From: an uncultured Spirochaetaceae bacterium
GTDB taxonomy: Bacteria; Spirochaetota; Spirochaetia; Sphaerochaetales; Sphaerochaetaceae
Assembly (NCBI GenBank): GCA_944389505.1
Contig: CALXMP010000008.1
Coordinates: 1-64,000 of the forward strand
Direction of reading: 5' to 3'
Length of the DNA: 64,000 bases
Shown here: in pieces, positions 20,639-42,638 of the stretch
Layout: every line of letters starts with the position of its first letter
Numbering within the stretch: position 1 is the first letter of the stretch
Notes under the pieces: model-generated
Told to the model about the DNA's origin: nothing
What the model saw: only the letters and a program-made list of their open reading frames with translations
Databases searched by the model: none
Position numbers and translations under genes: made by a program

Positions 20639-20690
20639 ACTTTATCACAGCATATTGGAGGACGCAAGATGTGTTGCAATTTGTTGCAAG
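20639..20690 (-). promoter_or_regulatory. ygeW promoter with tandem GTTGC operator
   Basis: On the minus strand TTGCGT (20662-20667) and TAAAGT (20639-20644) are 17 bp apart. Five bp upstream of the -35 lies the 18-bp site at 20673-20690, read on the plus strand as GTTGCAATTTGTTGCAAG: two GTTGCAA half-sites with a 10-bp period. Closely related 18-mers occur before xdhA and ygfK. The position suits an activator that contacts RNA polymerase. Confidence 0.6.
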
Positions 20691-20933
20691 CTACTCATTG
20701 CTTCCTCTCAGATGCTCCGGAACCTCGCTGCCATCGCTTATATGGCCATTGTAGTATTCGACATCCTCCACAGTCATATCGTAGCCATGCTCCCTTGCAA
20801 ATGGCACCAGAACATCCCTCGTGATACAGGAAGGATCCCCTCCATATTCCATTATCCTTCTATCGAGCTCCTTCCTCACCTCATCGTCCTCATCAACGAA
20901 GAGAAGAAATGCATCCATGATATTATCAGCCAT
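20691..20933 (-). CDS. Nif11-like small acidic protein, 80 aa
   Basis: This acidic helical protein contains VLVPFAREHGYDMTVEDVE, which resembles the A..hGy.fT.eel core of Nif11-domain proteins. The ribosome-binding site GAGAGG and a TATAAT upstream support expression. Nif11 domains occur in nitrogen-fixation loci and as leaders of RiPP precursors. Here there is no GG cleavage motif and no cysteine-rich core, so a precursor role is unlikely. It is divergent from the AmmeMemoRadiSam operon and upstream of ygeW. Confidence 0.5.
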   Translation of the reverse strand: MADNIMDAFLLFVDEDDEVRKELDRRIMEYGGDPSCITRDVLVPFAREHGYDMTVEDVEYYNGHISDGSEVPEHLRGSNE

Positions 20934-21022
20934 GACATCCTCTCCCAGTGAAATTCTATCAGTGCATTATATTTTTGGACAGAAAAAGAAGCGTAACCAA
21001 CAGAAAGTATTATCATATAAAC

Positions 21023-21823
21023 ATGGAACGATATGCAGCATTCGCAGGGAGCTGGTATCCTGCGGACAAGAAGGAACTTGATGAATACGTCAGACCCGAT
21101 CTCTTCGGGCCTGGGGATATCACCGATGCAGTTCTTCCGCATGCAGGCCTGTATTACAGTGCCAGGATAATAAGGGAGTACTTCCAGAAGCTTAGCCCAG
21201 GAATAAAGAGAATTGTGATAGTATCGCCATCACACTACTTCCGGCTTCCTCCAGGTACTCTCTGCACAGCACCATTCACCTCCTCCGCAACGCCATATGG
21301 AAGCATAGAGACAATACCGCTTGATACCGATGGCTGCATCAGCTCTGCATCCGCACTGCAGAGGGAGCACGGGATTGAGATGTTCCTGCCATTCATAAAG
21401 GCTGCAGGGCTCGCAGTCTCCTATGCCCTGATAAACGAAGTGACAGGCATGGATAATATAACCGATCTCGCGGATAGCCTCATAAGCATAACCGATGAAT
21501 CAACGGGATTCATCGCATCCTCCGATTTCACCCACTATGGTCATCGCTTCGGCTATATGCCGTATGGCAGAAACGCAGGAAAGAAAGTGAAAGAGCATGA
21601 CAGTGAATGCACAAAGCTCCTCAGCAGTATGGAGACGGAAGAGGTTCTCAGAAGATTCACGGAGGGAACGATATGCGGAATCGCTCCTGCCATGATCGTA
21701 AGCGCGATTGCACGTAAGAAAGGAAGGAACGGGAGCACGGGGCTTTCATATACATCGGATGATATTTCAGGAACATCCTCCGATGATTTCGTTTCGTATC
21801 AGAGTGTTCTCTGGAGGGAATAA
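21023..21823 (+). CDS. amrB: AmmeMemoRadiSam system protein B (MEMO1 family)
   Basis: The 266-residue protein begins FAGSWYPADKKEL and carries VLPHAGLYYS, SPSHYF and CGIAPAM, matching the two His and one Cys metal ligands known in MEMO1. ATG 21023 is used; there is no ribosome-binding site, and a TATCAT hexamer lies 6 nt upstream, so the mRNA may be leaderless. It overlaps the next gene by one base (TAATG). MEMO-family proteins bind metal, and the bacterial function of the three-gene system is unknown. Confidence 0.9.
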   Translation: MERYAAFAGSWYPADKKELDEYVRPDLFGPGDITDAVLPHAGLYYSARIIREYFQKLSPGIKRIVIVSPSHYFRLPPGTLCTAPFTSSATPYGSIETIPLDTDGCISSASALQREHGIEMFLPFIKAAGLAVSYALINEVTGMDNITDLADSLISITDESTGFIASSDFTHYGHRFGYMPYGRNAGKKVKEHDSECTKLLSSMETEEVLRRFTEGTICGIAPAMIVSAIARKKGRNGSTGLSYTSDDISGTSSDDFVSYQSVLWRE

Positions 21824-22356
21824 TGGACAAGGAAGAAAGGAATGAGCTCCTTATGATTGCAAGGAAATCGATAGAGGATGCTTTCAAGGGAATTGCTCTG
21901 GAAGAATTCGAGGATGATGCGAGAAGGAACGGAGCATTCGTCACGCTAAGAAAAGGAAGCTCGCTCAGGGGATGCATCGGCTATATCATCGGCCTATGCG
22001 GGCTGAAGCGGCAGATAGCGCTTCTAGCAAGGGATGCGGCCTTCTCAGATTACCGCTTTCCTCCTCTCTCCGAGTCGGAGCTTCCGCTATGCACTATCGA
22101 GATTTCGGTGCTGACGGAGCCTGAGGAGATTGCAGGCCCCGATGAGTTCATTCCAGGGCGGGATGGCATCATACTGACGGCTCAGGGGCGAAGGGCGGTC
22201 TTCCTCCCGCAGGTTGCCGATGAGACAGGCTGGTCAAGGGAGGAGATGCTTTCGGCACTCTCGGAGAAGGCAGGCCTTGAAAGCGATGCATGGAAGGATA
22301 AAGGCGCTGTATTCATGACATTCCAGGCGGAGGTTTTCAGTGAGGACGACTTGTGA
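21823..22356 (+). CDS. amrA: AmmeMemoRadiSam system protein A (AMMECR1 domain)
   Basis: The 177-residue AMMECR1-fold protein contains FVTLRKGSSLRGCIGYI, the hallmark LRGCIG motif, and ends with TFQAEVF. In bacteria it occurs with a MEMO homologue and a dedicated radical SAM enzyme, as here. The biochemical role is not established. Its 3' end overlaps the radical SAM gene by 17 bp, so all three are coupled. Confidence 0.92.
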   Translation: MDKEERNELLMIARKSIEDAFKGIALEEFEDDARRNGAFVTLRKGSSLRGCIGYIIGLCGLKRQIALLARDAAFSDYRFPPLSESELPLCTIEISVLTEPEEIAGPDEFIPGRDGIILTAQGRRAVFLPQVADETGWSREEMLSALSEKAGLESDAWKDKGAVFMTFQAEVFSEDDL

Positions 22357-23248
22357 TTTCTGCTACAGGCATTGCAGCATCCCTGATGGCATGACAGGCT
22401 GGTGTGGCAGCCGCATCGCAGAGGATGGTACTGTACATGATACTGCTTATGGACAGCTGACAGCGATTGCCGATGATCCGATTGAAAAGAAGCCTCTTTA
22501 TCACTTTCTGCCAGGGACAAGGACGCTGTCGATTGCTATGGAAGGCTGCTCCCTCGACTGCGATTTCTGCCAGAACTACAGGATAGCGAAGGAACAGCAT
22601 GTGGGACTTGAGCGCTACGCCCCGGACTACATCGCAGAGTTCGCTGCAGATAATGATTTCCCCTCGATAAGCTTCACATACACGGAGCCAATAGTCTGGC
22701 AGGACTATATGATTGATGTTGCATCGGCTGCAGGTGAACGCTCCGTGAGGACAGCAATGGTATCGAACGGAACATTCTCCACAGAGGCATTGGAGAGAAT
22801 ACTTCCTGTAATCGATGCATACAACATCGACCTGAAAGGCGATGAAGAATTCTACAGATCGATATGCCATGGCTCAATCACTCCAGTTCTGGATGGGATA
22901 GAGAGAATCGTAGAGTATGGCGCGCACCTTGAAGTCACGACTCTTGTGATCGAAGGCATCCATACAAAGGCCATGATCCATGAGATTGGCAGCATGCTCA
23001 AAAGCCGCGGCGTCAATGTCTGGCACATCACCCCGTTCTATCCGATGCGCAGAATGTCCGATAGAAATCCAACATCCGCAGCATTCCTGAATGCGATGGC
23101 AGAGGAAGCAACAGAATCAGGAATCCCTCATATCTATGCGCTCGACAGCACTATTCATTGTCCAGAGTGCGGAACAAGTGTAGCAAGGAAGGAAAGCACA
23201 GGAATATGTCCTTCATGCGGCAGAGCAATCTATGGTATCTGGGAATGA
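22340..23248 (+). CDS. amrS: AmmeMemoRadiSam system radical SAM enzyme
   Basis: The 302-residue protein has the CxxxCxxC cluster motif in EGCSLDCDFCQN, preceded by a Cys-rich segment (CDFCYRHC...GWCGSR) and ending with a zinc ribbon (CPEC...CPSC). FTYTEPIVW and YNIDLKGD are family motifs shared with pyruvate-formate-lyase activase-like enzymes. The start is GTG at 22340, 6 nt after GGAGG. It ends 1 bp before the convergent selD. The substrate of the enzyme is unknown. Confidence 0.92.
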   Translation: MRTTCDFCYRHCSIPDGMTGWCGSRIAEDGTVHDTAYGQLTAIADDPIEKKPLYHFLPGTRTLSIAMEGCSLDCDFCQNYRIAKEQHVGLERYAPDYIAEFAADNDFPSISFTYTEPIVWQDYMIDVASAAGERSVRTAMVSNGTFSTEALERILPVIDAYNIDLKGDEEFYRSICHGSITPVLDGIERIVEYGAHLEVTTLVIEGIHTKAMIHEIGSMLKSRGVNVWHITPFYPMRRMSDRNPTSAAFLNAMAEEATESGIPHIYALDSTIHCPECGTSVARKESTGICPSCGRAIYGIWE

Positions 23249-23249
23249 A

Positions 23250-24290
23250 TCACATGATAACTGCAACAGGTAAGCTTGCTCTATCAATGACCCTGCCGAT
23301 GATCCATGCATTGCCTTCCATGCTTCTGACATAGTTCTCTGCATCATCCTTAGGCATCGACAAAAGCAATCCCCCCGATGTCTCAGGTGAGAACATCAGA
23401 TCCTTCAAGGTCTGATCAAAACCTTCGGAAAAACTTACCTTGCTTCCGATATAATCCTCGTTGGTATACCGTCCTTCCGGAAGGAAGCCGAATGCGGCAA
23501 GATCATATGCAGAGCGATGGACAGGGAGGAACGATGAATCGATCTCAATCGTGCATCCTGAAGCCTCAGCCATCTCCGCAGAGTGTCCGAGAAGAGAGAA
23601 CCCCGTGACATCGGTCGCAGCATGAACGCTATAGCGCATAGCTGTATTCCTCGCATGCCTGTTGAGCGTCCTCATCGAGGATACGGCATCATCATAAGCA
23701 TCCTCAGGGCACTCTCCTCCCTTCGATGCGGTCATCAGAACACCTACTCCGAGTCTCTTGGTTAGGATGATTGAATCCCCGCTTATTGCGCCTCCATTGG
23801 TCCAAACCTTGTCCTTATCATAGACAGCAGTGACGGCAAGCCCGAATTTCGGTTCCCTGTCAGATATCGTATGGCCTCCTGCGATAGCGCACCCCGCCTC
23901 ATCCGTCTTGCTTCTAGCACCGAGCATGATGCTCTTCAGGACATCCAGATCAAGACACGACGGGAAGCAGGCTATGGAGAGCGCGACAGAAGGCTCAGCG
24001 CCCATCGCATAGATATCAGAGAGGGCATTAGCTGCCGCAATCTCACCGAAAAGGAATGGATCATCGACCATAGGCGGGAAGAAATCAACGGTCTCGATCA
24101 GTACACGGCCATCCCCAAGATCATAGACGAATGCATCATCAGCGCTCTCATATCCTGCAATCAAGGCCTCAGAATGGAATGGAGGAAGCTCTGAAAGCAC
24201 CCGATGGAGATCGCCGGGAGGAAGCTTCGCATTGCATCCGGAGCTCCTTACAAGCGATGTCAGTCCTGTTCTTTCCATATCATCCGCCAT
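23250..24290 (-). CDS. selD: Selenide, water dikinase (selenophosphate synthase)
   Basis: The 346-residue protein has the catalytic SGCNAK (Cys19, Lys22; the E. coli enzyme uses Cys17 and Lys20) in its Cys form, with no UGA. Further motifs are ETVDFFPPMVDDP, AIAGGHTI and ATDVTGFSLLGH. It makes selenophosphate from selenide and ATP, needed for selenocysteine, selenouridine or the selenium cofactor of molybdenum hydroxylases. The start overlaps the DUF3343 gene. No selA, selB or tRNA-Sec is present in the window, so use for the hydroxylases is the best local explanation. Confidence 0.95.
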   Translation of the reverse strand: MADDMERTGLTSLVRSSGCNAKLPPGDLHRVLSELPPFHSEALIAGYESADDAFVYDLGDGRVLIETVDFFPPMVDDPFLFGEIAAANALSDIYAMGAEPSVALSIACFPSCLDLDVLKSIMLGARSKTDEAGCAIAGGHTISDREPKFGLAVTAVYDKDKVWTNGGAISGDSIILTKRLGVGVLMTASKGGECPEDAYDDAVSSMRTLNRHARNTAMRYSVHAATDVTGFSLLGHSAEMAEASGCTIEIDSSFLPVHRSAYDLAAFGFLPEGRYTNEDYIGSKVSFSEGFDQTLKDLMFSPETSGGLLLSMPKDDAENYVRSMEGNAWIIGRVIDRASLPVAVIM

Positions 24291-24496
24291 ACATCCCCAT
24301 CCTTCTCATACACAGCCTCTGCCCCTTCAAGAAGCTCTCTTCCCACCTCACCTTCAACAAATGCGGCAGTACCGCACGAGGATGAAAGGGAACGGGGGAC
24401 AGGTCTAAGAACACAGCCTTCGCCATACCTCTTCCTGAAAAAGAACGCGGCATACTGGCTATGAAAGGTTATCACCTTCTGATCTCGATTCTCCAC
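24260..24496 (-). CDS. DUF3343 putative selenium/sulfur carrier
   Basis: The 78-residue protein contains ITFHSQYAA followed by VPRSLSSSCGTAAF, the SSCG motif of the DUF3343 family, which often neighbours yedF, yedE and selD. A conserved Cys suggests persulfide or selenide carriage, but this is inferred. The start is GTG at 24496, with GAGGG 7 nt upstream. Its ends overlap yedF by 25 bp and selD by 31 bp. Confidence 0.8.
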   Translation of the reverse strand: MENRDQKVITFHSQYAAFFFRKRYGEGCVLRPVPRSLSSSCGTAAFVEGEVGRELLEGAEAVYEKDGDVWRMIWKEQD

Positions 24497-25738: not shown

Positions 25739-25745
25739 AATACGG

Positions 25746-25790: not shown

Positions 25791-25797
25791 CTTCCGT

Positions 25798-28418: not shown

Positions 28419-31292
28419 TCAGAATTTACCGAGAGCCTTAAGGATCTTCTCCCCTGTTATCGGCCAGGATCTGACCCATACACCGGTTGCATCGGCGATA
28501 GCCATGGCTATTGCAGGAGCTGCACCATTGCAGGCGATCTCGGATATCGATTTAGCTCCGAACGGGCCATAGTCGTCATTCACATCAATCAGCACTGCCT
28601 TCATGTCATCAGGAGCATCCTGGATCATAGGCACACCGTAATCCGTGAATGTCGTGGTCAGGCACTTCCCGTCCTTATCGAGAATCATATCCTCATAGAG
28701 CGTATGGCCTATGCTCTTGAGGACGGCGCCATACATCTGGCATAGCGCAAGCTCTGGATTGATCGGAGTTCCGGCATCCTGAAGCGCATAGAACTTCCTG
28801 ACCTTGATCTCCCCGGTCCTGACATTGACAGCGACCTCGGCAAAGTGAGCTCCATACGGGACAGCGAAGTTCGGTGTCGTGAAAGAGCCTGTTCCGACAA
28901 GCTGCCCACGCCCTGTACCGGACGTTGCAGTGTGGGATATCTCATAATACGAGAGCTTCCTGCCATCTTCTGCGACAACATACCCAGGGTATTCCACTGA
29001 AAGCTTCTCCACAGGGACTTCCAGCTGTAGCGCAGCCTCCTCTAGCGTCTTTCTCAGGAGGTCCTTCGCAGCATTGAGCGACGCGTTTCCTGAGAAATAT
29101 GTCCCAGATGATGCATATGCGCCGGTATCGAACATGCAGGCATCGGTATCGCCAGAGACGACGGAAACGCTCTCAAGAGGCACCTTCATCACCTCTGCTA
29201 CGCACTTTGCGGAGATTGTATCAAGCCCTGTCCCGATATCCGCACCGCCGGAAAGAACGATGAACGTTCCATCAGTGAGGAGCTTCACCTGGGCGTTGGA
29301 ATGATCAAGTCCGGGAAGGCCGGAGCCCTGCTGTATCATTGCAAAGCCCTTTCCGATCTTCCAGTCAGGATCATCGGAGACCTCATGCTTTCCCCATCCG
29401 ATCATCTCAGCACCTTTGTCGAGGGCTTCCCTAAGTCCGCAGGAACCGACAGGGACGACAACACCTTCCCTTCCTTCTCCCAGACCTCTGAGGATCTCAA
29501 GCATATAGCCCTTCTCCACGATATTCTTCCTTGCCATCTCCAGAGGATCGACCCCGAGCTTCATTGCAAGCTCTCCCATGGCAGAGACTATCGCGAAGTA
29601 TCCCTTAGGTGCTCCGTAGCCCTGGTAGGCACCGGCCGGAGGCGTATTGGTGTAATACGTGAAGAGATCGTAGTACATATTATCGACGCGGAAGATCGGG
29701 AGCGTCTTGGACGATGCATTCATAGGGACTGTAAGACAATGGTTGCCATATGGCCCGGTATTTGCCCTTACATCCATATAGATTGCAGTGATTGTCCCAT
29801 CCTTCTTTCCGCCCATCTTCACACGGATTCTCATCGGATGGCGCGTGGAGTTGGCGAAGAACTCCTCAGCTCTGGTATTCCGGTAGTATATGGACTTGCC
29901 GGTCTTCCAGACTGCGTATCCTACAAGATCCTCTACGAGGATATCCTGCTTGGAGCCATAACCGCCTCCTACCCGTTCCTTGATGACATGGACCTTATGC
30001 TCAGGAATCTGGCACACAGTCGCCACAATTCGCCTTACATGGAAAGGAACCTGGGTAGAGCAGTTCAGGGTAAGCCTTCCCCCCTCTATATGCCCATAGC
30101 ATACATGGGGCTCAAGAGGAGTGCACTGCACCTGGCTTGTCTGATAGGTCTCATCGATGACAGCATCGGCTTCCCTGAAGCCCTTCTCGATATCCCCTAT
30201 TCCGCCATGGGCTGCAGCCGCGATGTTCTTCCTTATATCGCTATGGAGAGGGAACTGGTAAATGACCTTCTCCTCATCGGGATCAGCGCTCTTATTGTAC
30301 TCATCAAGATCATCGGGTGCACCGGATACATACTCGACAACTCCGTTATGAACCAGAGGTGCGCCATCGGCCATAGCCTCTTCTACTGTAAGGACAGGCT
30401 CGATAGGATCATATACCACCTTGATAAGCGATGCAGCCTTCTCTGCTGTCTCCATATCCTTTGCAACGATAGCAGCAACTCTGTCGCCGACATGTCGGAC
30501 CTTGCGATTCAGCAGACGTCTGTCATATGGCGAAGGCTCCGGATTTCCCTGACCTGCCTGCATGTAGTAGACATCAGGGCAGTTGAATGCCGTGATAATA
30601 TCCTCGACACCATCAACCTTCATTGCCTCAGAGAGATCGATTGAGCGGATATATGCGTGGGCAAAAGGAGAACGGAGCACATGCATGACGCACGAACCCG
30701 GCTCCACCCTGTCCTCGACAAAGAGCTTTCCACCAGCTGCGAGCGGCTTGGCATCGATCTTACCTGAAGGCTTGCCGACAACTCTCAAAGATGAACGGAA
30801 CGCTGGAGCTATCTTTGTACGGTATTCCCCATACATTCTCTTCTCGCGCGCAAGCTGCACAGCGAGGTAGTAATGCTCATAGCCTGCATCCCTGATGAAT
30901 ATGCCAGAGAGCGCATTCTTTATCTCATCCTTCGAAGGATTGGGATTCTTCTCAAGAAGATATGAAAGAAGCAATGCCGCCTCCGGTGCGTTGTAAGCGC
31001 TCTGAACGACACCTGCATCGATCATCGCCTGCTGCACATCGCTGATTTCCCTTCCCGAAAGGAGGGATTCAGGAGTCCTTATTGAAGCACCCTCAGCCTG
31101 ATAGAGCAGTATGAGGTTGGAATATGCAGGACGATCGTTGAAAATGATTGTATCAGAACCGGCAAATCCCTCCCTGTCATCGGAGTCTCTCAGAGAGACA
31201 TAGCCTGATCTGTAGAGGACATCCCTCAGCCTTTCATCGGCGGCCCCTGAAAGAACCGTGCTGCGGCCATTGATCTCAGCTCTTATTTCCAT
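28419..31292 (-). CDS. xdhD: XdhD-type molybdenum hydroxylase catalytic subunit
   Basis: At 957 residues it matches E. coli XdhD (956). The molybdopterin domains include VGGGYGSKQD, GAYQGYGAPKG, GGADIGTGLDT and the catalytic Glu in GAKSISEI. The first 170 residues align with a ferredoxin-like 2Fe-2S module but lack its cysteines: QSAYNAPE replaces QCGFCTPG, and FIRDAGY replaces CRCTGY. Electrons must then leave through the separate 2Fe-2S protein. Selenium-dependent members act on purines, nicotinate or similar rings; with ygfK and ssnA nearby a purine is most likely. Last gene of a five-gene operon. Confidence 0.92.
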   Translation of the reverse strand: MEIRAEINGRSTVLSGAADERLRDVLYRSGYVSLRDSDDREGFAGSDTIIFNDRPAYSNLILLYQAEGASIRTPESLLSGREISDVQQAMIDAGVVQSAYNAPEAALLLSYLLEKNPNPSKDEIKNALSGIFIRDAGYEHYYLAVQLAREKRMYGEYRTKIAPAFRSSLRVVGKPSGKIDAKPLAAGGKLFVEDRVEPGSCVMHVLRSPFAHAYIRSIDLSEAMKVDGVEDIITAFNCPDVYYMQAGQGNPEPSPYDRRLLNRKVRHVGDRVAAIVAKDMETAEKAASLIKVVYDPIEPVLTVEEAMADGAPLVHNGVVEYVSGAPDDLDEYNKSADPDEEKVIYQFPLHSDIRKNIAAAAHGGIGDIEKGFREADAVIDETYQTSQVQCTPLEPHVCYGHIEGGRLTLNCSTQVPFHVRRIVATVCQIPEHKVHVIKERVGGGYGSKQDILVEDLVGYAVWKTGKSIYYRNTRAEEFFANSTRHPMRIRVKMGGKKDGTITAIYMDVRANTGPYGNHCLTVPMNASSKTLPIFRVDNMYYDLFTYYTNTPPAGAYQGYGAPKGYFAIVSAMGELAMKLGVDPLEMARKNIVEKGYMLEILRGLGEGREGVVVPVGSCGLREALDKGAEMIGWGKHEVSDDPDWKIGKGFAMIQQGSGLPGLDHSNAQVKLLTDGTFIVLSGGADIGTGLDTISAKCVAEVMKVPLESVSVVSGDTDACMFDTGAYASSGTYFSGNASLNAAKDLLRKTLEEAALQLEVPVEKLSVEYPGYVVAEDGRKLSYYEISHTATSGTGRGQLVGTGSFTTPNFAVPYGAHFAEVAVNVRTGEIKVRKFYALQDAGTPINPELALCQMYGAVLKSIGHTLYEDMILDKDGKCLTTTFTDYGVPMIQDAPDDMKAVLIDVNDDYGPFGAKSISEIACNGAAPAIAMAIADATGVWVRSWPITGEKILKALGKF

Positions 31293-31977
31293 CGTTGCCC
31301 TCCTCGAAGATCACAGAAAAAAGATAGCGCTTGTACTCAGCAGATCCGAGCGTATCGCTTTCGAGGACCATATCCTTATAGCAATCACGGCTGCCAGATG
31401 CGATTGCAGACGGCATCGCTGTGTATGCATAATGGTCACCGCACCTTGCTGCCGTGACGACAGCATGCATGTGGGATGCACGTGATATACGCTTCACAGT
31501 ACCATCGGCATTGCTATTGACAGAGATGGAAAGCACTATCCACTCAGGCTCATGGTTTTTGATGTAATCGCAATAGAGAATGCTCCTTGCTGAGCTTCCA
31601 TCATAGACAAGAACAGTGGCGGTTGATGCCAGAAGCGCTGCGGTCATATAGCCATCAGCCCTGCATGATGCTGCATTACCGCCTATTGTTGCCATATTGC
31701 GCTGCTGGAGCGATGGACAGGATGCAGCTGCAGTCCTGATCACAGGGGGAACAATCCCTGATGATGCTACATCCTCAAGCTTTGCACCGGCCCCGATAAC
31801 CACATTGCTGCCTTCAGCTGTGATTGCCCCGGGAATGAACCCATTGATATCAATAAGATCCTCGAACTCACTGCCCAAGGTAAGAACGGTTGTTCCTCCC
31901 AAAAGATAAGCGCTTCCTGCAATCTCCTTTCTGAGCCTGTATGCCTCTTCCGGCGCTGAAGGCCGATGTATCCTCAT
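31276..31977 (-). CDS. ygfM: FAD-binding hydroxylase subunit (YgfM-like)
   Basis: From ATG 31977 (ATGA overlap with the preceding gene's stop) the 233-residue protein has the CO-dehydrogenase-type flavoprotein pattern: AYLLGGTTVLT and NMATIGGNAASC for FAD contact. Upstream in-frame sequence lies inside the neighbouring gene and is not used. In E. coli ygfM precedes xdhD in the same way. The 3' end overlaps xdhD by 17 bp. It likely passes electrons from the XdhD subunit to NAD or a flavodoxin. Confidence 0.8.
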   Translation of the reverse strand: MRIHRPSAPEEAYRLRKEIAGSAYLLGGTTVLTLGSEFEDLIDINGFIPGAITAEGSNVVIGAGAKLEDVASSGIVPPVIRTAAASCPSLQQRNMATIGGNAASCRADGYMTAALLASTATVLVYDGSSARSILYCDYIKNHEPEWIVLSISVNSNADGTVKRISRASHMHAVVTAARCGDHYAYTAMPSAIASGSRDCYKDMVLESDTLGSAEYKRYLFSVIFEEGNDGNKS

Positions 31978-32846
31978 TTCTCCTCCTCTCCGATCACTCC
32001 CGGCTCTGCTCCATTGACGATGGCTTCCAGGAAGTATGTGAGCATCCTTGCTGTTGTATGGCGCCTGTACTTCGGCATCGCATGCGGGGATATAGCATGA
32101 TCCCACGCATCGAGGAAGTCCGGCACGATATCCGCAAGCTCATCAACAGGACGCCTTATGATCATAGACTCTGCCTCACGGCTGCGTATTACCTTCGGGC
32201 CTGCAGCCCCTGAGGATGCCCTGAAATCCGAGATGATCCCATCCTTCACGGAACATGCGGCAGATAGTGATAGCTTGGAAATGGCATTTGCCTTCCGCAT
32301 TCCTATCTTCCTATAGAACATATATGTGAAGTCGTGAGGAGGGATTATGACGCTCTTTATGATCTCATCATCCGCAAGGGCTGTCTTCTTGGAGCCGAGG
32401 ATGAAGTCATCGAGGAGCATTCTCCTCTCCCCGTCGAATGAAGCAAGAACAACCTCTGCATCAAGCAGGATCAGAGGCTGGGGAAGATCACCCTTAGGGG
32501 ATGCATTCCCTATATTCCCTCCGATTGTGGCTGTATTGCGCAGCGCTATTGCTCCCATTCCTGAGGCAGCCTTCCTGACATGCCAAGGAACGATATCGGA
32601 AGAAGCGATCTCTGCAGCCGTTGCCAGAGCCATGATCTCCACAGATCCATCCTCAAGCTTCCGGATTCCCTTAAGCTCCTTCAGCCCTGATATCACCATG
32701 ACAGGGAATCCGGGATTGGGCGCTGTCCCCTGGGCACGCCTGTGCTGCACCATTATATCCGTACCGCCTGCAAGCGGAACAGCCTTCTCTGCTTTCCTCA
32801 GGAGAAGGGCCTCCTCAAGTGTCTCTGGTACATAATTCACTGCCAT
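31974..32846 (-). CDS. xdhB: FAD-binding subunit of molybdenum hydroxylase (XdhB type)
   Basis: The 290-residue protein (E. coli XdhB has 292) has VPLAGGTDIMVQ and RNTATIGGNIGNASPKGD, the two FAD-binding loops, then MFYRKIGMRKANAIS. It is the electron-transfer flavoprotein of an XdhABC-type enzyme. It overlaps the 2Fe-2S gene by 10 bp and ygfM by 4 bp. Two different FAD subunits in one operon suggest two catalytic assemblies. Confidence 0.92.
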   Translation of the reverse strand: MAVNYVPETLEEALLLRKAEKAVPLAGGTDIMVQHRRAQGTAPNPGFPVMVISGLKELKGIRKLEDGSVEIMALATAAEIASSDIVPWHVRKAASGMGAIALRNTATIGGNIGNASPKGDLPQPLILLDAEVVLASFDGERRMLLDDFILGSKKTALADDEIIKSVIIPPHDFTYMFYRKIGMRKANAISKLSLSAACSVKDGIISDFRASSGAAGPKVIRSREAESMIIRRPVDELADIVPDFLDAWDHAISPHAMPKYRRHTTARMLTYFLEAIVNGAEPGVIGEEEK

Positions 32847-33322
32847 AGATCACCTCCGCGCTCAGCTGCAAGCCTGATGCTGTCGACTATCAGATCATAT
32901 CCTGTGCATCTGCAGATATTCCCGCTTATCGCCATGCGGATCGCGTTCTCATCTGGATTGGGATTCGCAGAGAGAAGCGCATATGCGGCCATGACCATCC
33001 CAGGTATGCAGAATCCGCACTGGACAGCGCCTCCATCACGGAATGCATCGACAAGGCATTTACCCTTCTCTGTATCCCTTATTCCTTCTATTGTGTAGAT
33101 CTCACTGCCCTCACAGGCACCTACAGGAATGATGCAGCTTGTGACAAGCTTCCCATCCTTTATGATCGAGCATGCGCCGCATTCGCCCTCACCGCAGCCT
33201 TCCTTGACCCCGGTGAGCTTCAGCTCATCCCTGAGCACATCGATAAGCCGCGTAAGCGGATTGCCTGCAAAGACAACGCGCGAACCATTAACGCTGAAAA
33301 CAATCTTCCTAAGCATTCTCAA
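32837..33322 (-). CDS. xdhC: 2Fe-2S subunit of molybdenum hydroxylase
   Basis: The 161-residue protein contains both clusters: CGEGECGACSI with a later Cys in SCIIPV, and QCGFCIPG with NICRCTGYD. It is the only small 2Fe-2S subunit in the operon, so XdhA and perhaps XdhD share it. The symbol follows E. coli xdhABC and is not the XdhC chaperone family. It overlaps xdhA by 14 bp. Confidence 0.93.
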   Translation of the reverse strand: MRMLRKIVFSVNGSRVVFAGNPLTRLIDVLRDELKLTGVKEGCGEGECGACSIIKDGKLVTSCIIPVGACEGSEIYTIEGIRDTEKGKCLVDAFRDGGAVQCGFCIPGMVMAAYALLSANPNPDENAIRMAISGNICRCTGYDLIVDSIRLAAERGGDLWQ

Positions 33323-35447
33323 GTGCCTCCTCGATATCCTCAGGCGGAATAGGTATCTTAGTGACGGTTATGCCGAGAGCCCGCTCAACAGCATCGACAT
33401 ATGCTGCATCGGCGCCATTGAACACAAGCTCTCCCATACCCTTTGCCCCCTGCGGGCCCCACTGGTACGGATTATCCTCCAGGAACCACTCCTGACGCGG
33501 GAAATCCATTGATGTCGGAATAACATAGTCAGACATCGAAGACTGCCTGAAATGTCCGTTCCTATTCTCCATTTTCTCCATGGATGCATACCCCAGGGAC
33601 TGGATGACACCGCCGTTCACCTGACCATGGACAATAAGCTCATCGATTGCGTGGCCTATTTCATGACAGGTCCAGATTCCTGTCGTCCTGACCTCATTCG
33701 TAAGCTTGTCGACCTCAACCTCAACGCAGGCAGCTCCCCAGCCATAGCCAAGATAGGCATCTCCTCTGAATGTTGACTGATCCCATGGATGCCCATCAGG
33801 ATGCTGGTACTCCTTCTCGACGGAGAAGTCTCCCTCATTCCAGCGCTCCTTCATCTCCAGCGCACAGTCCTCGGCGATCTTTCCAACGATCATGGTAGAG
33901 CGCGAGGCCGCAGTCGGACCGGAATCTGGGACGAGCGATGTATCGGGGTTATCATAATCGACCTGCTCCATATCGATCTTGAGCGCATTGGCAACAATCT
34001 TCCTCAGAGCGGTCTGGAAACCCTGTCCCATCTCCGTCGAACCTACTTCGATGCGGACTCTGTTGCCGCTCTTCACAAGTCTGGCATGTGCCTTGATGAT
34101 TGCCTGCTCACCATTTCCGGTGAATGCACCGCCATGGTTGTAGAAAGACATGCCGATGCCCTTTCCGGAACCGATGGCGTATTCCTTTGACTTCCTGAAG
34201 TAATCAGAGGCATCAGCGATCTTCTTCATCATCTCCGGAAGCTTCACTTCTTCGACGATATGGCCATTGGTGACGGTCTCTCCGCCCTTCTTTATGAAAT
34301 ACCTGGCTTTGTACTCTGCTGGATCGAAGCCGAACTTCCTTGCAATATGATCCAGATGCGTCTCAATCGCAAAGAGCGTCTGAGGAGCTCCAAAGCCACG
34401 GAACGCATCTGAAGGGAACGTATTTGTCGCAACACCGACGCCCTTGAGGTATGTCGCAGGGAAATCATAGACACCATTGGCATGGAATACTCCGCGCTGG
34501 AGAACGACATACGAAGCGGAGAGATACGCTCCGCAGTTGTAGTATATCGTGCCATCTATGCCGAGGATATTCCCCTCCTTATCCAGAGCCGTGCGGAAAA
34601 TGGTCTTGGAAGGATGGCGCTTCACCGAGTAGAGCATATCCTCCTCTCTTGTGAAGATAAGCTTGATCGGCTTTTGTATGACGCTTTCAGCAACAAGAAG
34701 AGGACCCGCAAGAACATCGGGGAAGTGCTCCTTGCCTCCGAACGCGCCTCCTGTCGTTGTCTGCCTTATGATTATATCCTCAGGCTGAAGGCCAAGAAGC
34801 CCTGCAACGGATTTTCGTACATAGAACGGGCACTGCGCTGAGATATAGATGACATACTTGCCATCCTCCATCGTGATGACAGCACCATTCGTCTCAAGAT
34901 GCACATGCTCCTGGAATCCAGTCTCAATCGTCTCTGTAAAGACAGAGTCAGCCCTGTCCATGATGCCCTGCATCTTCTCGCCCTTCTCGCAGAAAAGTGA
35001 GCAGAGGACATTATCCTCTCCGACGATAGGCCCGCCCTTCAACGCAAGGGCATCATCGATTGTCACAGCAGGTTCCTGCTCGGTATAGCTTATCCTCACA
35101 TTCGAAGCAAGATAATCAAGCATGTTCCTGTCAGGACCTACAAGAAGTCCGATGGTCTCACCGACATACCTCACATCGCCATCGGCAAAGCATCTCCAGT
35201 CCTTTGCAATCATCCACAGCTCATTCTTCCCGCCTTCAGGTATATCCTTGGCAGAGATGAAATAATATCCTTCAGGAAGCTGGGGCACCGATATGCTGTC
35301 TATCGTACCGCGCGGGATATCCGAACGGATCATCCTGGCATAGAGCATATCAGGAAAGGAGTAATCCGAGGCATACATCGCCTCTCCCCTCGCCTTGGCC
35401 TCTGCATCGACCCTGACAACCCTGTCATCAATGCAATTTATAGGCAT
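33309..35447 (-). CDS. xdhA: XdhA-type molybdenum hydroxylase catalytic subunit
   Basis: Starting at ATG 35447 (GGAGG 4 nt upstream) the protein has 712 residues. It shows TTGGAFGGKE, RGFGAPQ, STEMGQGFQ and the catalytic Glu in KGMGELVF, typical of the xanthine dehydrogenase molybdenum subunit. It probably holds a cyanolysable sulfur or selenium ligand; the linked selD, yedE and desulfurase genes favour selenium. It is the first gene of the operon, downstream of a TATAAT promoter overlapped by the GTTGC operator. Confidence 0.92.
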   Translation of the reverse strand: MPINCIDDRVVRVDAEAKARGEAMYASDYSFPDMLYARMIRSDIPRGTIDSISVPQLPEGYYFISAKDIPEGGKNELWMIAKDWRCFADGDVRYVGETIGLLVGPDRNMLDYLASNVRISYTEQEPAVTIDDALALKGGPIVGEDNVLCSLFCEKGEKMQGIMDRADSVFTETIETGFQEHVHLETNGAVITMEDGKYVIYISAQCPFYVRKSVAGLLGLQPEDIIIRQTTTGGAFGGKEHFPDVLAGPLLVAESVIQKPIKLIFTREEDMLYSVKRHPSKTIFRTALDKEGNILGIDGTIYYNCGAYLSASYVVLQRGVFHANGVYDFPATYLKGVGVATNTFPSDAFRGFGAPQTLFAIETHLDHIARKFGFDPAEYKARYFIKKGGETVTNGHIVEEVKLPEMMKKIADASDYFRKSKEYAIGSGKGIGMSFYNHGGAFTGNGEQAIIKAHARLVKSGNRVRIEVGSTEMGQGFQTALRKIVANALKIDMEQVDYDNPDTSLVPDSGPTAASRSTMIVGKIAEDCALEMKERWNEGDFSVEKEYQHPDGHPWDQSTFRGDAYLGYGWGAACVEVEVDKLTNEVRTTGIWTCHEIGHAIDELIVHGQVNGGVIQSLGYASMEKMENRNGHFRQSSMSDYVIPTSMDFPRQEWFLEDNPYQWGPQGAKGMGELVFNGADAAYVDAVERALGITVTKIPIPPEDIEEALENA

Positions 35448-35515: not shown

Positions 35516-35557
35516 ATTATATATCAGATTTGAGGAAAGGTTGCATCAATTTGCAAC
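35516..35557 (-). promoter_or_regulatory. xdhA promoter with GTTGC operator
   Basis: The minus-strand -10 TATAAT is the complement of 35516-35521. Eighteen bp upstream lies the 18-mer GTTGCAAATTGATGCAAC (complement of 35540-35557), which is also a near-palindrome with GTTGCA/TGCAAC arms. It matches the ygeW site at 15 of 18 positions and covers the place of the -35 element, which is poor, so an activator is expected. Confidence 0.6.
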
Positions 35558-36819: not shown

Positions 36820-38043
36820 TCAGTCCTTTTCCTTGCCTTCGAGGGCGTATGGAAGCATGGCGTAGAACTTAGAGCAGATGACAAGGTCCTCTACCCTGTT
36901 GATCTCATTAGGTGCATGCGCCTGCGCCTCATCGCCAGGTCCGAAGCCGATAGCAGGAATCTTATGGCGGCCAGTTGTCGCAACAAGGTTCGTCGAGAAT
37001 GTCCACTTATCGACAACAGGATCCTTTCCGAACATCTCCTGATAGTCCCTGACGCCTGCCTGTACAAGCGGATGGTCCTTATCGAGCTTCCATGTCGGGA
37101 AGTAAAGCTCCTGTGAATACTTTGTCCCGGTCCATGCTGTCTTATCGTAATCAGGCATCTCAACGACGATATCCTCAGGCTTATCTCCTGTTGCCTTCGA
37201 GATATACTCACGTACCTGATTCATCGCAAGCTCTGCATCCTCGCCCCATGTGAGACGGCGGTCGCAGTAGAGCATCGCATAGTCAGGAACAGCACACTGC
37301 GAAGGGCCCTTCACATCCATCTGGGAAACGGTAATGGTTCCCTTTCCGAGGAAGTTGTCGTCATCGGGCTGCAGGTCCTTGTTAAGCTGCTCGATAGCAA
37401 GCGCTGCACGTGCTGCCTTATATGCTGCAGATACACCGCGCTCAGGAGCAGATCCATGGCATGATACACCGCGGAGTATGACGCGGATCTCCATCCTGCC
37501 TCTGTGGCCTCTATAGAGACGGCAGCTTGTCGGCTCTGTGGAGACGATGAGATCGGGCTTGATATTCTCCTCCTCGATCATGTACTTCCAGCACATGCCA
37601 TCACAGTCCTCCTCCATTACGGTGAAGGTGAAGAGGATGGTATACTCGCCGCCATATCCAAGTTCCTTGAGGATACGTCCTGCCGTGATCATCGAAGCAG
37701 CTCCGCCCTTCTGGTCAGAAGCACCTCTGCCCTTCACAAGACCATCCTCGATAGCACCGCAGAAAGGATCGAAATCCCAGTTCTGGAGGTTGCCTACCTC
37801 AACTGTATCGATATGAGCATCGAAAGCAAGGATCTTAGGTCCATTGCCTACGCGGCCAACAACAGAGCCAAGACCTTCGATTCTGGCCTCATCGAATCCA
37901 GCCTCTTCGCAGAGCTTCACAAGAAGACGGCATACATCCTCTTCCTTAGAGCTATAGCTCTTTGTCTTCACGAGCTTCGAGAGATTCTCAGCAGTGTAAT
38001 CTCTGTACTTCTCAGCAAGTTCCTTGATCCTTTCGGAAACCAT
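36820..38043 (-). CDS. ygeY: YgeY-type M20 metallohydrolase
   Basis: The 407-residue protein (E. coli YgeY about 403) has the M20 zinc ligands in DAHIDTV, the bridging Asp in GRGASDQKGG, the catalytic Glu-Glu in VMEEDCDG and the final His in AHAPNE. YgeY is assigned as a deacetylase or amidohydrolase-like enzyme and is one of the genes linked to anaerobic urate breakdown in gut bacteria. GGAG lies 8 nt before the ATG. It is the last gene of the ygfK-ssnA-ygeY operon, 12 bp after ssnA. Confidence 0.9.
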   Translation of the reverse strand: MVSERIKELAEKYRDYTAENLSKLVKTKSYSSKEEDVCRLLVKLCEEAGFDEARIEGLGSVVGRVGNGPKILAFDAHIDTVEVGNLQNWDFDPFCGAIEDGLVKGRGASDQKGGAASMITAGRILKELGYGGEYTILFTFTVMEEDCDGMCWKYMIEEENIKPDLIVSTEPTSCRLYRGHRGRMEIRVILRGVSCHGSAPERGVSAAYKAARAALAIEQLNKDLQPDDDNFLGKGTITVSQMDVKGPSQCAVPDYAMLYCDRRLTWGEDAELAMNQVREYISKATGDKPEDIVVEMPDYDKTAWTGTKYSQELYFPTWKLDKDHPLVQAGVRDYQEMFGKDPVVDKWTFSTNLVATTGRHKIPAIGFGPGDEAQAHAPNEINRVEDLVICSKFYAMLPYALEGKEKD

Positions 38044-38055
38044 ACAGCACTCTCC

Positions 38056-39402
38056 TTATGCTTTTATTCTATCTGTTCTCTCCCAGACACGCTTCGCAAC
38101 GCGCCTAGCCTCACTATAAACCTTTTCAGCATCGATGGAAGTGAACTCTCTGTTCTCATACAGGAGCTTACCATCGATTATCGTGCTCTCAACATTGCCC
38201 GATGTCATTCCCCAGACAAAGTGCGTGGCAGCATTGGCGCTGACCACAGGGGTCGGAGCATTGTATGAAAGTATTGCGATATCAGCTTTATAGCCGGATG
38301 CGACACGGCCCCACTTCGCCTCATTATGGAAGACTGACTCGACAAGCCTGTTGCCGCGGTTGAGAGCTGCAACGAAATCCGAAGGCCAGAACGGACCGCC
38401 CTCATCCTTATGCTTGAAGAATGCAAGCTTCAGCTCCTCGAACATATCCCCGCCGCAGCCATCCGTTCCGATGACAAGCTTCCTGACATCCGGCACATGC
38501 CTGTTATACCCGATATGGTTGTTCATATTGGAGCGGGCATTATGGGCTAGGAAGCAACCCCTCTCATTCAGAAGGTCAACCTCACTATCGGAAAGATGGA
38601 CGCCATGAACAAGAAGCGTCTTCTCATCGAGAAGCGAGAACCGGTCAAGCCTTCTGACGATATCATCGCCATGGAAATGGTGGGAATGGACCTGATCGTA
38701 TTTATCCTCCGCTACATGAAGATGAATGCCACGCCCAGTCGTCTTCACGGCATCAGCCATGAGCGCAAGACCTTCATCGGGGATAGTGAATGGCGCGTGG
38801 CCTCCTATCATCGCTTCAACAAGGACATTCTCTCCACCAGCTCTCTTCGCATCGACCTCCGCAGCGAATCTTATATTCTCCTCATAGCCTGCACGGACCT
38901 CATCCATGCCCTGATTCCTGTCAGTGATTTCGAAGCAGGTCGCACCGCGCACACCCGTTTCCTCCATACCCCGCGCAATTGCGGACAGGGAATCCTTGAT
39001 GTATGACGGGGATGCATGATGATCGATGCAGGATGTCGTTCCGGCAGCAATGGCATCGAGGGAACACACGAGAGAGGAATAGTAGACAGCTTCCTCGTCC
39101 AGTGCCCGGTCAAGCCTCCACCACCACTCCTTCAGGACCTGTATGAAATCGGTCTGAGGCCCTGCAGATATAAGCATTCCGCGGGAAAGGCCGGAATAGT
39201 AATGATGATGAGAGCATACATTGCCGGGGATGACAATCTTTCCCGTTCCATCGATGATCTTAGGAGCAGAAAGCCCTGCAGCGGCATCCTTCCCCGCTGC
39301 TGTGATCATCGATCCTTCAATGACGACATCCGCATTCTCAATGATATCAAACGGAGGCTCCGTCTGCATTATCATCGCATTCCTGATGATTATATCTGCC
39401 AT
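38056..39402 (-). CDS. ssnA: SsnA family amidohydrolase
   Basis: The 448-residue protein has the metal-dependent hydrolase motifs SHHHYYSG, HLHVAED, LLVHGVHL and IGTDGCGG, as in SsnA and other chlorohydrolase/guanine-deaminase-like enzymes. ATG 39402 overlaps the ygfK stop by one base (TGATG) and has GGAGG 4 nt upstream; an in-frame GTG one codon earlier is less likely. It probably hydrolyses a cyclic or amidine intermediate of purine breakdown; the exact reaction is not proven. Confidence 0.9.
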   Translation of the reverse strand: MADIIIRNAMIMQTEPPFDIIENADVVIEGSMITAAGKDAAAGLSAPKIIDGTGKIVIPGNVCSHHHYYSGLSRGMLISAGPQTDFIQVLKEWWWRLDRALDEEAVYYSSLVCSLDAIAAGTTSCIDHHASPSYIKDSLSAIARGMEETGVRGATCFEITDRNQGMDEVRAGYEENIRFAAEVDAKRAGGENVLVEAMIGGHAPFTIPDEGLALMADAVKTTGRGIHLHVAEDKYDQVHSHHFHGDDIVRRLDRFSLLDEKTLLVHGVHLSDSEVDLLNERGCFLAHNARSNMNNHIGYNRHVPDVRKLVIGTDGCGGDMFEELKLAFFKHKDEGGPFWPSDFVAALNRGNRLVESVFHNEAKWGRVASGYKADIAILSYNAPTPVVSANAATHFVWGMTSGNVESTIIDGKLLYENREFTSIDAEKVYSEARRVAKRVWERTDRIKA

Positions 39403-42400
39403 CACTCCTCCACTGGTCCGAGAAGATACGAGTATGAAAGGTATATCTTCTCGATAATCGCCGCGATTTCCTCAGGCACATCAGCCTCAAGACTGCCATC
39501 GCGTCCTATACGTCCTTCGGATACCTTACCATCAAGCCTTATAAGCACCGTATCGCCTTCTGCATAGAATCCGCTGGCATCGCTCTCATCGAAGTCCTCC
39601 CTGAGCGAGAACAGGGTGAGCTTATCCCTGTATGGACGTCCGGAATGGGGGCAGAACGTAGCGCAGTTGCCGCATTCATTGCAGTATGCATCGAGATGGA
39701 TAACCTGGAATGGATCCTCGAAGAGCCCGGTCTCCCTCATATCTATGGCGACATTCGCCCTGTTCGGACATACCTCGACGCACTTCAGGCAGAGGTATGA
39801 GCACTCGACACAGCGTGATGCCTCTGAGAGCGCAAAGAACTCATCGCCCTTTGTCCCTGGCGGCATCTGCCTGCTCTTCTTGGCGATTATATTGAGGAAG
39901 AAGTTATCCTCCGCCTCCCTGAGCTCTGCCTCCTCGCTTTCGGAAAGCTCCTCCTCATCCTCTTCATCATGGTGATGCCCGCATGAGCACTCCTCGCCAT
40001 GCTCATGATGATGTCCGCAGGAGCACTCCTCCTCGTCATCATCCTCATCAGCAAGTGCCTGATAGACTGAGTCGATTGCCTTGTCGACTGCAGCTCTGGC
40101 AGATGCCATGCACCTGACAACCGTCGATGGGCCAGTGACCGCATCGCCAATTACATACACCCCATCCTCTTCCGAAGCCGAACCAGCGCCAAGCGCCTCA
40201 AGAACGGATTCATCAACAGACTCACCGATTGCGTAAATAAGATAATCGGCCTTGATGGATTCACGGCGGCCTGTATCTACAGGACGTCTTCTTCCAGAGG
40301 CATCCTCCTCGCCCAGCTCCATCACGGCAAGCTCGGCAACGCCATCCTGGAATGATACAGGATTATGGAGGAATTCGAACTTGATACCCTCCTCCAGCGC
40401 CTCCTCATACTCCTCCGGATCGGCAGGCATCTCCTCCTCGGAGCGTCTGTATACGACGGTCACATCTGAGACGCCTGGGATCCGCTTAGCCATGCGGGAG
40501 GCATCCATAGCGGTATTGCCTCCGCCGACAACGACAGCGTGCTCGCCGATATTGATCTTATCGCCGGCCTTGCATCTTCTGAGGAATGCCACAGCCCCCT
40601 CGGACGGTCCATTGCCGGGAAGATCCATCGTACGTTCCTTCTCCGCTCCGATAGCGATGAAGATATATTCATACCCCGCCTTGCGGAGATCACTCACAGT
40701 AACACTCTCAGAGAAATGGAAATCAACGCCGCACTCCCTGATGAAATCAACATCATCGTCGATTGCCTTATCAGGGATTCTGAACTCAGGTATCGTGCTT
40801 CTGACAACACCGCCGGCAGAGGCATCCTTCTCATATAGAGATGTATCAAACCCTGCTCTGGCAAGGAAATATGCAGCAGCAAGGCCGGCAGGACCCGCTC
40901 CGATGACAGCAGCTTTCACATCTGCAGGCTCATCGGGCTTCTCCCATATCTCAGAGAGGAACTCCGCCCTTCCATTCTCTGCGGCAAGACGCTTGATCTC
41001 CCTGATAGCCACAGGGCCTTCATAGTCCATCCTCGTACAGTGGTTCTGGCACTGATGGTCGCAGATCCATCCAGTGATATTAGGCAAGGCATTCTTGAGA
41101 TAGATAAGCCCCAGAGCCTCTGCCCACCTGCCCTCTCCTGCAAGTGCTATGTAATCAGGGATATCCTGATGTATCGGGCAAGCCTCGATGCAAGGTGCCA
41201 CAAAGCAGTCAGTAAGAGGAAGAGGAGTACCGATCTTGACGCTTTCCCCGCGTTTTTTAGCCCTGTCGAACAGGCCTGAGTCCTCAGCATTCTTGCCAGT
41301 CATGAGCAGGGCCGAAGGATTCACAAGCTTCTTCTCCCAGCCGTCTGCATCAACCAGGGAGCGAGCAATCTGCAGCATCCTGGAGTATCCACCAGGCCGG
41401 AGCATGTCGCTTGCAAGGGTTATTGGATGCACACCTGCATCAAAGAGCATTCCGGCATTGAGGATTGAGACACCTCCGGAGAATGAGATCGGCATGCGGC
41501 CGTCGAAATGCTCTGCAATCTGCCTTGCAACCTCAAGTGACACCGGGAACAATGCCTTGCCTGACATATATTTCTCATTGCCAGGGAGAACCTTGCCATC
41601 GCTTATCGAAGCAAGTGTATTCGTAAGCTTAACGCCGAAGCCCACACCATTTTCCGCTGCAAGCTTCTCCAGACGCTCCAGCATCGGGAATGCATCGGAT
41701 TTCTGAAGGTCATGGTCGAATGATTCACGGCGGAGACCTACATTCGAATAACCATAGCCATCGAGGATCGAGCGGACCTTATCATAGCCGAGAAGCGTCG
41801 GATTGAGCTTCACGAACGTATCGATATGCTTCTCCTGTATCATATATGAGCATATAGCCTCGATCTCATCGGGCGGACAGCCGTGCATCGTCGATATCGT
41901 TGCGGATGATGCTATGCGGCGGGAAATCCTATCGAGCGAGGAAGCGGCCTTCAGCGCAGCCCCTTCCCATCCCGTTCCCTCGAAGATGTTGTCCTCGAGC
42001 ATGGCTGCAGCCTGGGCAATGTAATCGCCGAATGAGTCCTTATGGCATTCGATCATATTATCGATGAACACCTGCATCCTTTCCTCTTTGATGCCCTTCA
42101 GATCATATCCGACAGACATATTGAAGAGGAAAGATGGCTCCTCAGGCACCTTGCCGGTCATGCAAGCCTCCAGTATGTGGAGGATGATCCATGCCTTGAG
42201 ATACTCATCGAATGCCTTCTCAAGCGTGTATTCCGTTGACCATTCAGCGTTGTAGACCTCATCCCGTGCATCGATGCAGGGCTTTGCAATCTCCAGCCTG
42301 TCATTGATCTGCACCGTCTTGAGCTCGATGAATCTTGCTCCGGAAAGATATGATGCAACTATATTCTGCGCGAGCTGCGTGTGCGGCCCAGCGGCAGGTC

Positions 42401-42566
42401 CAAGAGGCATAGTGCAGGAAGATGACAGAATCCCTATCCTCTTCTTCCTTTTGTCCTCATAGAAAAGGCTGTTATCGATACCGAATACCGAACCATGGTT
42501 CCTGTATTCGCCCGCTATCCTCTCAAGAAGTTCCTGGAATGGAACCGGCCTCATGCGATCTGCCAT
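39402..42566 (-). CDS. ygfK: YgfK-type iron-sulfur flavoprotein (putative selenate reductase subunit family)
   Basis: The 1054-residue protein (E. coli YgfK about 1032) has four parts. Residues 1-430 are dihydroorotate-dehydrogenase-like. A GltD-like iron-sulfur region follows (CFVAPCIEACP near 452-465, CDHQCQNHC). Next come flavin and NADPH Rossmann folds (IGAGPAGLAAA near 551, VVGGGNTAMD near 676). A C-terminal ferredoxin has CVECSYLCLKCVEVCP and CNECGNCATFCP. Residues about 836-872 are an unusual acidic insert with two ECSCGHHH units. The protein likely moves electrons from NAD(P)H to a purine-derived substrate. First gene of its operon. Confidence 0.92.
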   Translation of the reverse strand: MADRMRPVPFQELLERIAGEYRNHGSVFGIDNSLFYEDKRKKRIGILSSSCTMPLGPAAGPHTQLAQNIVASYLSGARFIELKTVQINDRLEIAKPCIDARDEVYNAEWSTEYTLEKAFDEYLKAWIILHILEACMTGKVPEEPSFLFNMSVGYDLKGIKEERMQVFIDNMIECHKDSFGDYIAQAAAMLEDNIFEGTGWEGAALKAASSLDRISRRIASSATISTMHGCPPDEIEAICSYMIQEKHIDTFVKLNPTLLGYDKVRSILDGYGYSNVGLRRESFDHDLQKSDAFPMLERLEKLAAENGVGFGVKLTNTLASISDGKVLPGNEKYMSGKALFPVSLEVARQIAEHFDGRMPISFSGGVSILNAGMLFDAGVHPITLASDMLRPGGYSRMLQIARSLVDADGWEKKLVNPSALLMTGKNAEDSGLFDRAKKRGESVKIGTPLPLTDCFVAPCIEACPIHQDIPDYIALAGEGRWAEALGLIYLKNALPNITGWICDHQCQNHCTRMDYEGPVAIREIKRLAAENGRAEFLSEIWEKPDEPADVKAAVIGAGPAGLAAAYFLARAGFDTSLYEKDASAGGVVRSTIPEFRIPDKAIDDDVDFIRECGVDFHFSESVTVSDLRKAGYEYIFIAIGAEKERTMDLPGNGPSEGAVAFLRRCKAGDKINIGEHAVVVGGGNTAMDASRMAKRIPGVSDVTVVYRRSEEEMPADPEEYEEALEEGIKFEFLHNPVSFQDGVAELAVMELGEEDASGRRRPVDTGRRESIKADYLIYAIGESVDESVLEALGAGSASEEDGVYVIGDAVTGPSTVVRCMASARAAVDKAIDSVYQALADEDDDEEECSCGHHHEHGEECSCGHHHDEEDEEELSESEEAELREAEDNFFLNIIAKKSRQMPPGTKGDEFFALSEASRCVECSYLCLKCVEVCPNRANVAIDMRETGLFEDPFQVIHLDAYCNECGNCATFCPHSGRPYRDKLTLFSLREDFDESDASGFYAEGDTVLIRLDGKVSEGRIGRDGSLEADVPEEIAAIIEKIYLSYSYLLGPVEE

Positions 42567-42587
42567 AAACTCTCCTGTCTGTCTATG

Positions 42588-42638
42588 ATTTTAAACCACC
42601 AGATAACACTGTCAATCTAATTCGCAACAAAACGCAAC
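42588..42638 (-). promoter_or_regulatory. ygfK promoter with GTTGC operator
   Basis: On the minus strand TTGACA (complement of 42610-42615) and TAAAAT (complement of 42588-42593) are 16 bp apart, a strong sigma-70 type promoter. Five bp upstream is GTTGCGTTTTGTTGCGAA (complement of 42621-42638), two GTTGCG half-sites with a 10-bp period. The spacing to the -35 is the same as at ygeW. Confidence 0.7.

Follow-up and report, generated by a model that had tools for sequence, protein, structure and literature searches.

Three operons within the 64,000-nucleotide stretch of spirochaete DNA analysed here (the window) carry a similar short sequence ahead of their first genes, ygeW, xdhA and ygfK. A first-pass annotation attributed these sequences to a single regulator, probably an activator of all three operons. 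The locus therefore raises the questions of whether the sites belong to one regulon, how far that regulon extends, how the sites act on their promoters, and what type of protein may bind them.

Operons and operator sites in the window

The names given to these genes in the first-pass annotation hold. YgeW, YgfK, SsnA and YgeY match curated models well above their cut-offs, while xdhA is identified by its molybdenum-hydroxylase domains, its NCBIfam pucD/XdhA matches falling below cut-off. The open reading frame list starts xdhA at a TTG (35510); the ATG at 35447 comes after a ribosome-binding site. In the rest of the xdh operon, 28419-32846 was named by Pfam and 28419-31292 by TIGR03313, and the Fe-S reading frame at 32837-33322 was named from sequence alone.

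19410..20612, minus strand: ygeW, knotted carbamoyltransferase (TIGR03316, 765 bits against a cut-off of 500)
28419..33322, minus strand: rest of the xdh operon (Fe-S subunit, two FAD-binding subunits, XdhD-type Mo/Fe-S subunit)
33309..35447, minus strand: xdhA-type molybdenum hydroxylase large subunit, first in the xdh operon (Pfam MoCoBD_1/2)
36820..38043, minus strand: ygeY, M20-type hydrolase (TIGR03526, 489 bits)
38056..39405, minus strand: ssnA, aminohydrolase (TIGR03314, 541 bits)
39402..42566, minus strand: ygfK, flavin/Fe-S reductase of the reductive uric-acid pathway (TIGR03315, 1200 bits)

All three annotated sites were confirmed in position and sequence, as was the 10-bp period of their GTTGC half-sites. 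The full element was defined from 44 non-redundant spirochaetal ygfK promoters, which were chosen by protein similarity and not by motif, and all of which contain the repeat. In these promoters, a T precedes each GTTGC (98% and 95% for the two words), a purine follows it (100% and 98%), the spacer consists of three variable bases, and the bases past the second word are unconserved. Because the spacer varies while the core words are kept, the element is a heptamer direct repeat, TGTTGCR-N3-TGTTGCR, with 10 bp from start to start; the lack of conservation after the second half-site rules out a purely inverted reading. The consensus of the repeat is GTTGCR-N-(T/A)-(T/C/A)-T-GTTGCR and its commonest form is GTTGCATTTTGTTGCA. 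Longer arrangements also occur, with three words in two promoters (L316, L088) and two full elements in three others (L091, L252, L334). The sites in the window are the following:

13809..13824, plus strand: weak, doubtful half-site pair GTTGCATATTTATGCA, one mismatch to the pattern
20672..20688, plus strand: ygeW operator TGTTGCA-ATT-TGTTGCA, with the same placement and orientation in all motif-bearing ygeW orthologues found
35540..35557, minus strand: xdhA operator GTTGCA-AATTGA-TGCAAC, overlapping the promoter, its second direct half degenerate (GATGC)
42622..42639, minus strand: ygfK operator TGTTGCG-TTT-TGTTGCGA, kept in relatives

With no mismatch allowed, the originally proposed pattern matches exactly these three operators in the window; with three mismatches allowed, it yields 8 matches, which is the chance level (8.8). 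The earlier statement that no other gene start in the window carries a copy is thus upheld for exact matches, but the weak pair at 13809-13824, some 170 bp upstream of a gene for an amino-acid ABC transporter, has to be added as a doubtful candidate. Of the three operators, that of xdhA is the weakest; it reads either as GTTGC-N5-GATGC or as an inverted GTTGCA-N6-TGCAAC; it is kept in the nearest relative (L281), partly kept in a few others, and absent in many. In every orthologue listed, the repeat points toward the gene at ygfK and away from the minus-strand gene at ygeW.

Two further parts of the window resemble anti-phage defence loci. At 1836-4066, two overlapping genes look like a defence pair; one encodes an AAA ATPase that resembles AbiLi/AriA, the other an unnamed protein of 255 aa. 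At 50575-52178, an XRE regulator that carries a metallopeptidase-like domain and resembles defence control proteins of the RmrA/CapP type is followed by a 184-aa protein that by eye looks like a PIN-type nuclease.

Enrichment and conservation across spirochaetes

In 48 congeneric genomes, all of them positive, the pattern GTTGCRNNNTGTTGCR has 163 matches (the sum over the per-genome table), as compared to 3 for the same pattern read backwards. Across the class, the longer pattern TGTTGCRNNNTGTTGCR has 56 sites in 20 of 98 genomes, with 3 for the control; the sites lie in families f1, f3, f4, f17 and f25, apart from one of the 56 at a contig end in f9. Beyond the home family, the repeat is therefore found in four further families of this class, and the remaining families practically lack it. 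It is a lineage-specific, strongly enriched element and not a product of chance.

Individual sites are conserved as well. The ygfK operator is kept in 29 of the 30 best-matching YgfK loci (one locus is from another family of the class), and it is missing in G014 (L047). Between orthologues, the core words stay and the spacers change. For example, the copy before purE (L011:1501-1516, G000:C4:120777; L062, L066) is found in the window's own genome and its close relatives G019 and G026, reading GTTGCATGATGTTGC in one case and GTTGCATTCTGTTGC in a close relative, with different spacers and the same GTTGC words. The closest named relatives are labelled 'uncultured Spirochaetaceae', 'Spirochaetales' and Candidatus Ornithospirochaeta. 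Overall, the scan of the genome and its relatives that the first-pass annotation had proposed clearly shows a frequency above chance, a link to particular genes, and conservation.

The genes downstream

Downstream genes were read at about 130 sites in the genus, together with the class-wide set. In the genus, the targets are ygfK-ssnA-ygeY, ygeW, carbamate kinase, a ygeX-type diaminopropionate ammonia-lyase, a second YgeY-type hydrolase, a xanthine permease with a divergent substrate-binding-protein gene, a xanthine dehydrogenase (XDH) gene, and nucleoside-binding lipoproteins. In other families, they are ygfK with a divergent pyridoxal-phosphate enzyme, carbamate kinase, adenine deaminase, an AzgA-like purine permease, a xanthine permease, XDH subunits, a nucleoside ABC permease and a YhhQ/QueT-like transporter. 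Curated models confirm representative targets (arcC, diaminopropionate ammonia-lyase, ade, pbuX/NCS2 and YgeY), whereas the XDH subunits, nucleoside ABC genes, AzgA-like permease and lipoproteins were named from their sequences, the last two having no strong NCBIfam match. Within the genus, the distance from site to start codon is 56-59 bp for most ygfK genes, about 60 bp for ygeW (always reversed), and 19-33 bp for carbamate kinase.

By the identities predicted for these genes, the targets make up the route by which purines and uric acid are catabolised, with the reductive pathway of PMC12507026 as a part of it. The site far outnumbers its control and accompanies genes of linked function in many species, as would be found for a single-pathway regulon with a conserved operator. 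The proposal of one shared regulator for the three operons is accordingly well supported, both by the 163 to 3 enrichment and by the pathway-linked genes, but it was incomplete: the predicted regulon is far larger than three operons. Carbamate kinase, carA and purE, which lie outside the window in the same genome, are also preceded by copies.

Upstream of carA (L007:1487-1580, G000:C1; L521-L550), nearly all of 30 congeneric genomes have an array of TTGC-type half-sites spaced by 9 or 11 bp, with an inverted GCAAC-N6-GTTGC in several species. The conservation of this array suggests that the purine regulator may also control carbamoyl-phosphate synthesis.

Other genes recur beside the motif. 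Two pyridoxal-phosphate enzymes, one cysteine-synthase-like and one threonine-synthase-like, adjoin ygfK across families (43684-46426 in the window; L187, L189, L191, L226), and the motif often lies between ygfK and such divergently transcribed genes; the two enzymes are candidates for unrecognised steps of the uric-acid pathway. In one sub-clade (L098, L107, L111, L126), the motif precedes a gene for a 240-aa protein with no Pfam match, followed by a YicC-like gene.

Promoter geometry and the sign of regulation

The putative promoter elements of the three operons are as follows:

20639..20644, minus strand: ygeW candidate -10, TAAAGT, after a 17-bp spacer (TATGCT in relatives)
20662..20667, minus strand: ygeW candidate -35, TTGCGT (TTGCTA in relatives)
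35516..35521, minus strand: xdhA candidate -10, TATAAT
42588..42593, minus strand: ygfK -10, TAAAAT, after a 16-bp spacer (TAGAAT in most relatives)
42610..42615, minus strand: ygfK -35, TTGACA, the consensus (TTGAC in 43 of 44 relatives)

Across ygfK orthologues, 7-10 bp lie between the end of the element and TTGAC, and a 16-bp spacer then leads to TAGAAT, TAAAAT or TACAAT. At ygeW, the reversed element lies a few bp before a TTGC-type -35. The carbamate-kinase promoters have a fixed geometry: in 26 of 26 non-redundant cases, exactly 8 bp separate the second word from a TAxxxT -10, so that the first word occupies the position of the -35; as these loci were mostly collected by motif, the 26 of 26 describes geometry and not frequency. 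Given these arrangements, the sites would act on sigma-70-type promoters.

The first-pass annotation expected an activator. The promoters fit a repressor at least as well, considering the near-consensus ygfK promoter (TTGACA-16-TAGAAT) with its 7-10 bp gap, the flipped orientation at ygeW, and the operator inside the core promoter of carbamate kinase. A near-consensus core promoter, gaps that vary by 2-3 bp, and free orientation are more typical of repression, and on these features we lean slightly toward a repressor that would bind beside or over the -35 region and leave when purines arrive. Direct repeats that replace the -35 are typical also of OmpR/PhoB-type activators.

What type of regulator may read the sites

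Regulator genes were sought in the fetched regions, using clustering and visual inspection of the open reading frames. Some of these regions do contain regulator-like genes, but none was recognised as a transcription-factor gene that lies beside the uric-acid clusters or shares a motif-bearing promoter, and the search for a regulator gene with its own copy of the motif, as the first-pass annotation had proposed, found none. Neighbourhood clustering around ygfK at 35 loci returned enzymes and transporters, with no conserved regulator. The window also encodes, at 43026-43571, a genus-restricted DUF3320 protein that resembles the C-terminal end of the anti-phage protein ProA and is divergent from ygfK in several species. 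It was rejected as the regulator, being confined to the genus when the motif spans several families, and often not adjacent to ygfK. Two LacI genes were also rejected: one lies 5.6 kb from the carA array and sits with an arabinose-type operon, and the other (G000:C10:61432, L004) has a near-motif palindrome 170 bp upstream and adjoins a sugar-binding protein.

The geometry itself brings to mind OmpR, CpxR, PhoP and TorR, which classically bind head-to-tail TGT-type words every 10-11 bp, in longer arrays, at or in place of the -35. The spirochaete operators have the same head-to-tail arrangement of words with a 10-bp period, the same longer arrays and a like placement near the -35, which the repeat replaces at its fixed distance from the -10 in all 26 carbamate-kinase promoters. 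An OmpR/PhoB-type response regulator with a winged helix, bound head to tail and touching sigma-70 at the -35, could thus be an activator on this same operator, though we consider this the less likely reading. The word (TGTTGCR) and the purine-catabolism targets differ from those of the known family, the -35 of ygfK is already consensus, and the gap from operator to -35 varies by up to 3 bp. OmpR-type regulators are present in all motif-bearing genomes sampled, but they are present in nearly every genome, so their presence says little. Among the clades with members in the home family, no response regulator matches the motif by distribution. In particular, the clade G000:C5:159536, which was not seen in the motif-free G127, is represented in each of the six motif-bearing f1 genomes on the tree, but it has no close member in the motif-bearing G037, G038 and G109, and many motif-free families have it too. 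The half-site has a parallel in another family: GTTGCATTTTGTTGCA starts with the octamer GTTGCATT of E. coli CytR and then repeats the octamer core, making a pair of GTTGCATT-like half-sites as defined in PMC3454398. CytR, which governs nucleoside uptake and use, binds direct and inverted pairs at several spacings (PMC3454398); inverted half-sites also occur in the genus, at xdhA and at carA in several species, and the motif-free G127 has no LacI gene. A CytR-type regulon would also have CRP sites on either side of the operator and work by anti-activation; at ygfK, the promoters have a consensus -35. A LacI-family protein working like CytR is nevertheless unlikely. The documented CytR direct repeats have a 1-bp octamer spacer, as compared to 2 bp in the strict spirochaete repeat, which moreover covers purine and urate catabolism. 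No CytR-like gene was found, nor any LacI gene that adjoins a member of the regulon. In the motif-bearing G099, neither of the two LacI genes shows a purine link, and the motif-bearing G021 has just two (L484 and L498, assigned to it from the order of loci), both beside sugar genes, leaving only the small gap that a 96% completeness allows for a LacI regulator free of a sugar operon.

Two other types of control fit far less well. According to a statement in PMC12507026, purine catabolism in B. subtilis is controlled by PucR, likewise one regulator for such a route, and the window's genome has one HTH_30 protein above cut-off. A PucR-type (HTH_30) regulator is nonetheless very improbable here, as HTH_30 proteins do not track the motif: they are present in motif-free families and fall short of the cut-off in the motif-bearing G014 (99% complete), G021 (96%), G077 (97%), G038, G037 and G096, each single absence from a draft genome being uncertain, here as for the OmpR-type and LacI genes. 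The poorest fit is that the sites are chance resemblances or misread sigma-54 (-24/-12) promoters of the type used in E. coli, which we regard as next to impossible. The 163 matches versus 3 in the 48 congeneric genomes argue against chance. As for sigma-54, TTGC words are common to both kinds of site, E. coli has RpoN bound at its ygeV-ygeW region (PMC8743547), and TGGTGCGATTGTTGC-type sequences upstream of ygfK in L258 and other enterobacterial loci look like -24/-12 promoters. Further, a SigL promoter and the predicted regulator DioR have been linked to yqeB and purine genes in C. difficile (PMC11448449). The genes under sigma-54 control in the two species overlap with those studied here, with ygeW and selenium/xanthine genes in common (PMC8743547, PMC11448449). 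By contrast, the spirochaete sites have no -24/-12 box and lack the GG of the -24 element, follow a 10-bp and not an 11-bp period, and adjoin TTGACA/TAGAAT elements of the sigma-70 type.

A proposed model and its meaning

In the reading we prefer, the sites are probably the operators of a single regulator whose gene lies elsewhere in the genome and which controls a purine and uric-acid catabolism regulon. The regulator would recognise TGTTGCR heptamers that follow one another head to tail every 10 bp and share one DNA face. The sites, the way they are conserved and the identities of the genes behind them are observed directly; that a single protein binds all sites is an inference. Its regulon would comprise nucleobase and nucleoside uptake, adenine deaminase, xanthine dehydrogenase and the reductive uric-acid pathway (XdhD, YgfK, SsnA, YgeW, YgeX and YgeY), with carbamate kinase recovering ATP from carbamoyl phosphate. 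Its signal would presumably be purine or nitrogen status. Taken further, and more tentatively, an undescribed purine- or nitrogen-sensing regulator, distinct from PucR, sigma-54 and a simple CytR orthologue, might govern purine and uric-acid catabolism across several spirochaete families as well as carA, linking nucleobase breakdown to carbamoyl-phosphate economy.

An operator with its transcription-factor regulon is ordinary as a kind; the specific motif and regulon appear undescribed in the literature searched. That search returned no regulator of the reductive uric-acid pathway described outside E. coli and Clostridia, and no paper uniting Sphaerochaeta, regulon and purine. The pathway was biochemically characterised only in 2025 (PMC12507026).

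Anaerobic breakdown of uric acid by gut bacteria has been linked to gout and to the urate levels of the host, and the present analysis provides a precise operator and gene list for a largely uncultured lineage of gut spirochaetes. It adds candidate members to the pathway, namely the two pyridoxal-phosphate enzymes, the permeases and the nucleoside transporters. Control of the pathway would also differ by lineage, through sigma-54 in E. coli and C. difficile and through sigma-70-type promoters in these spirochaetes.
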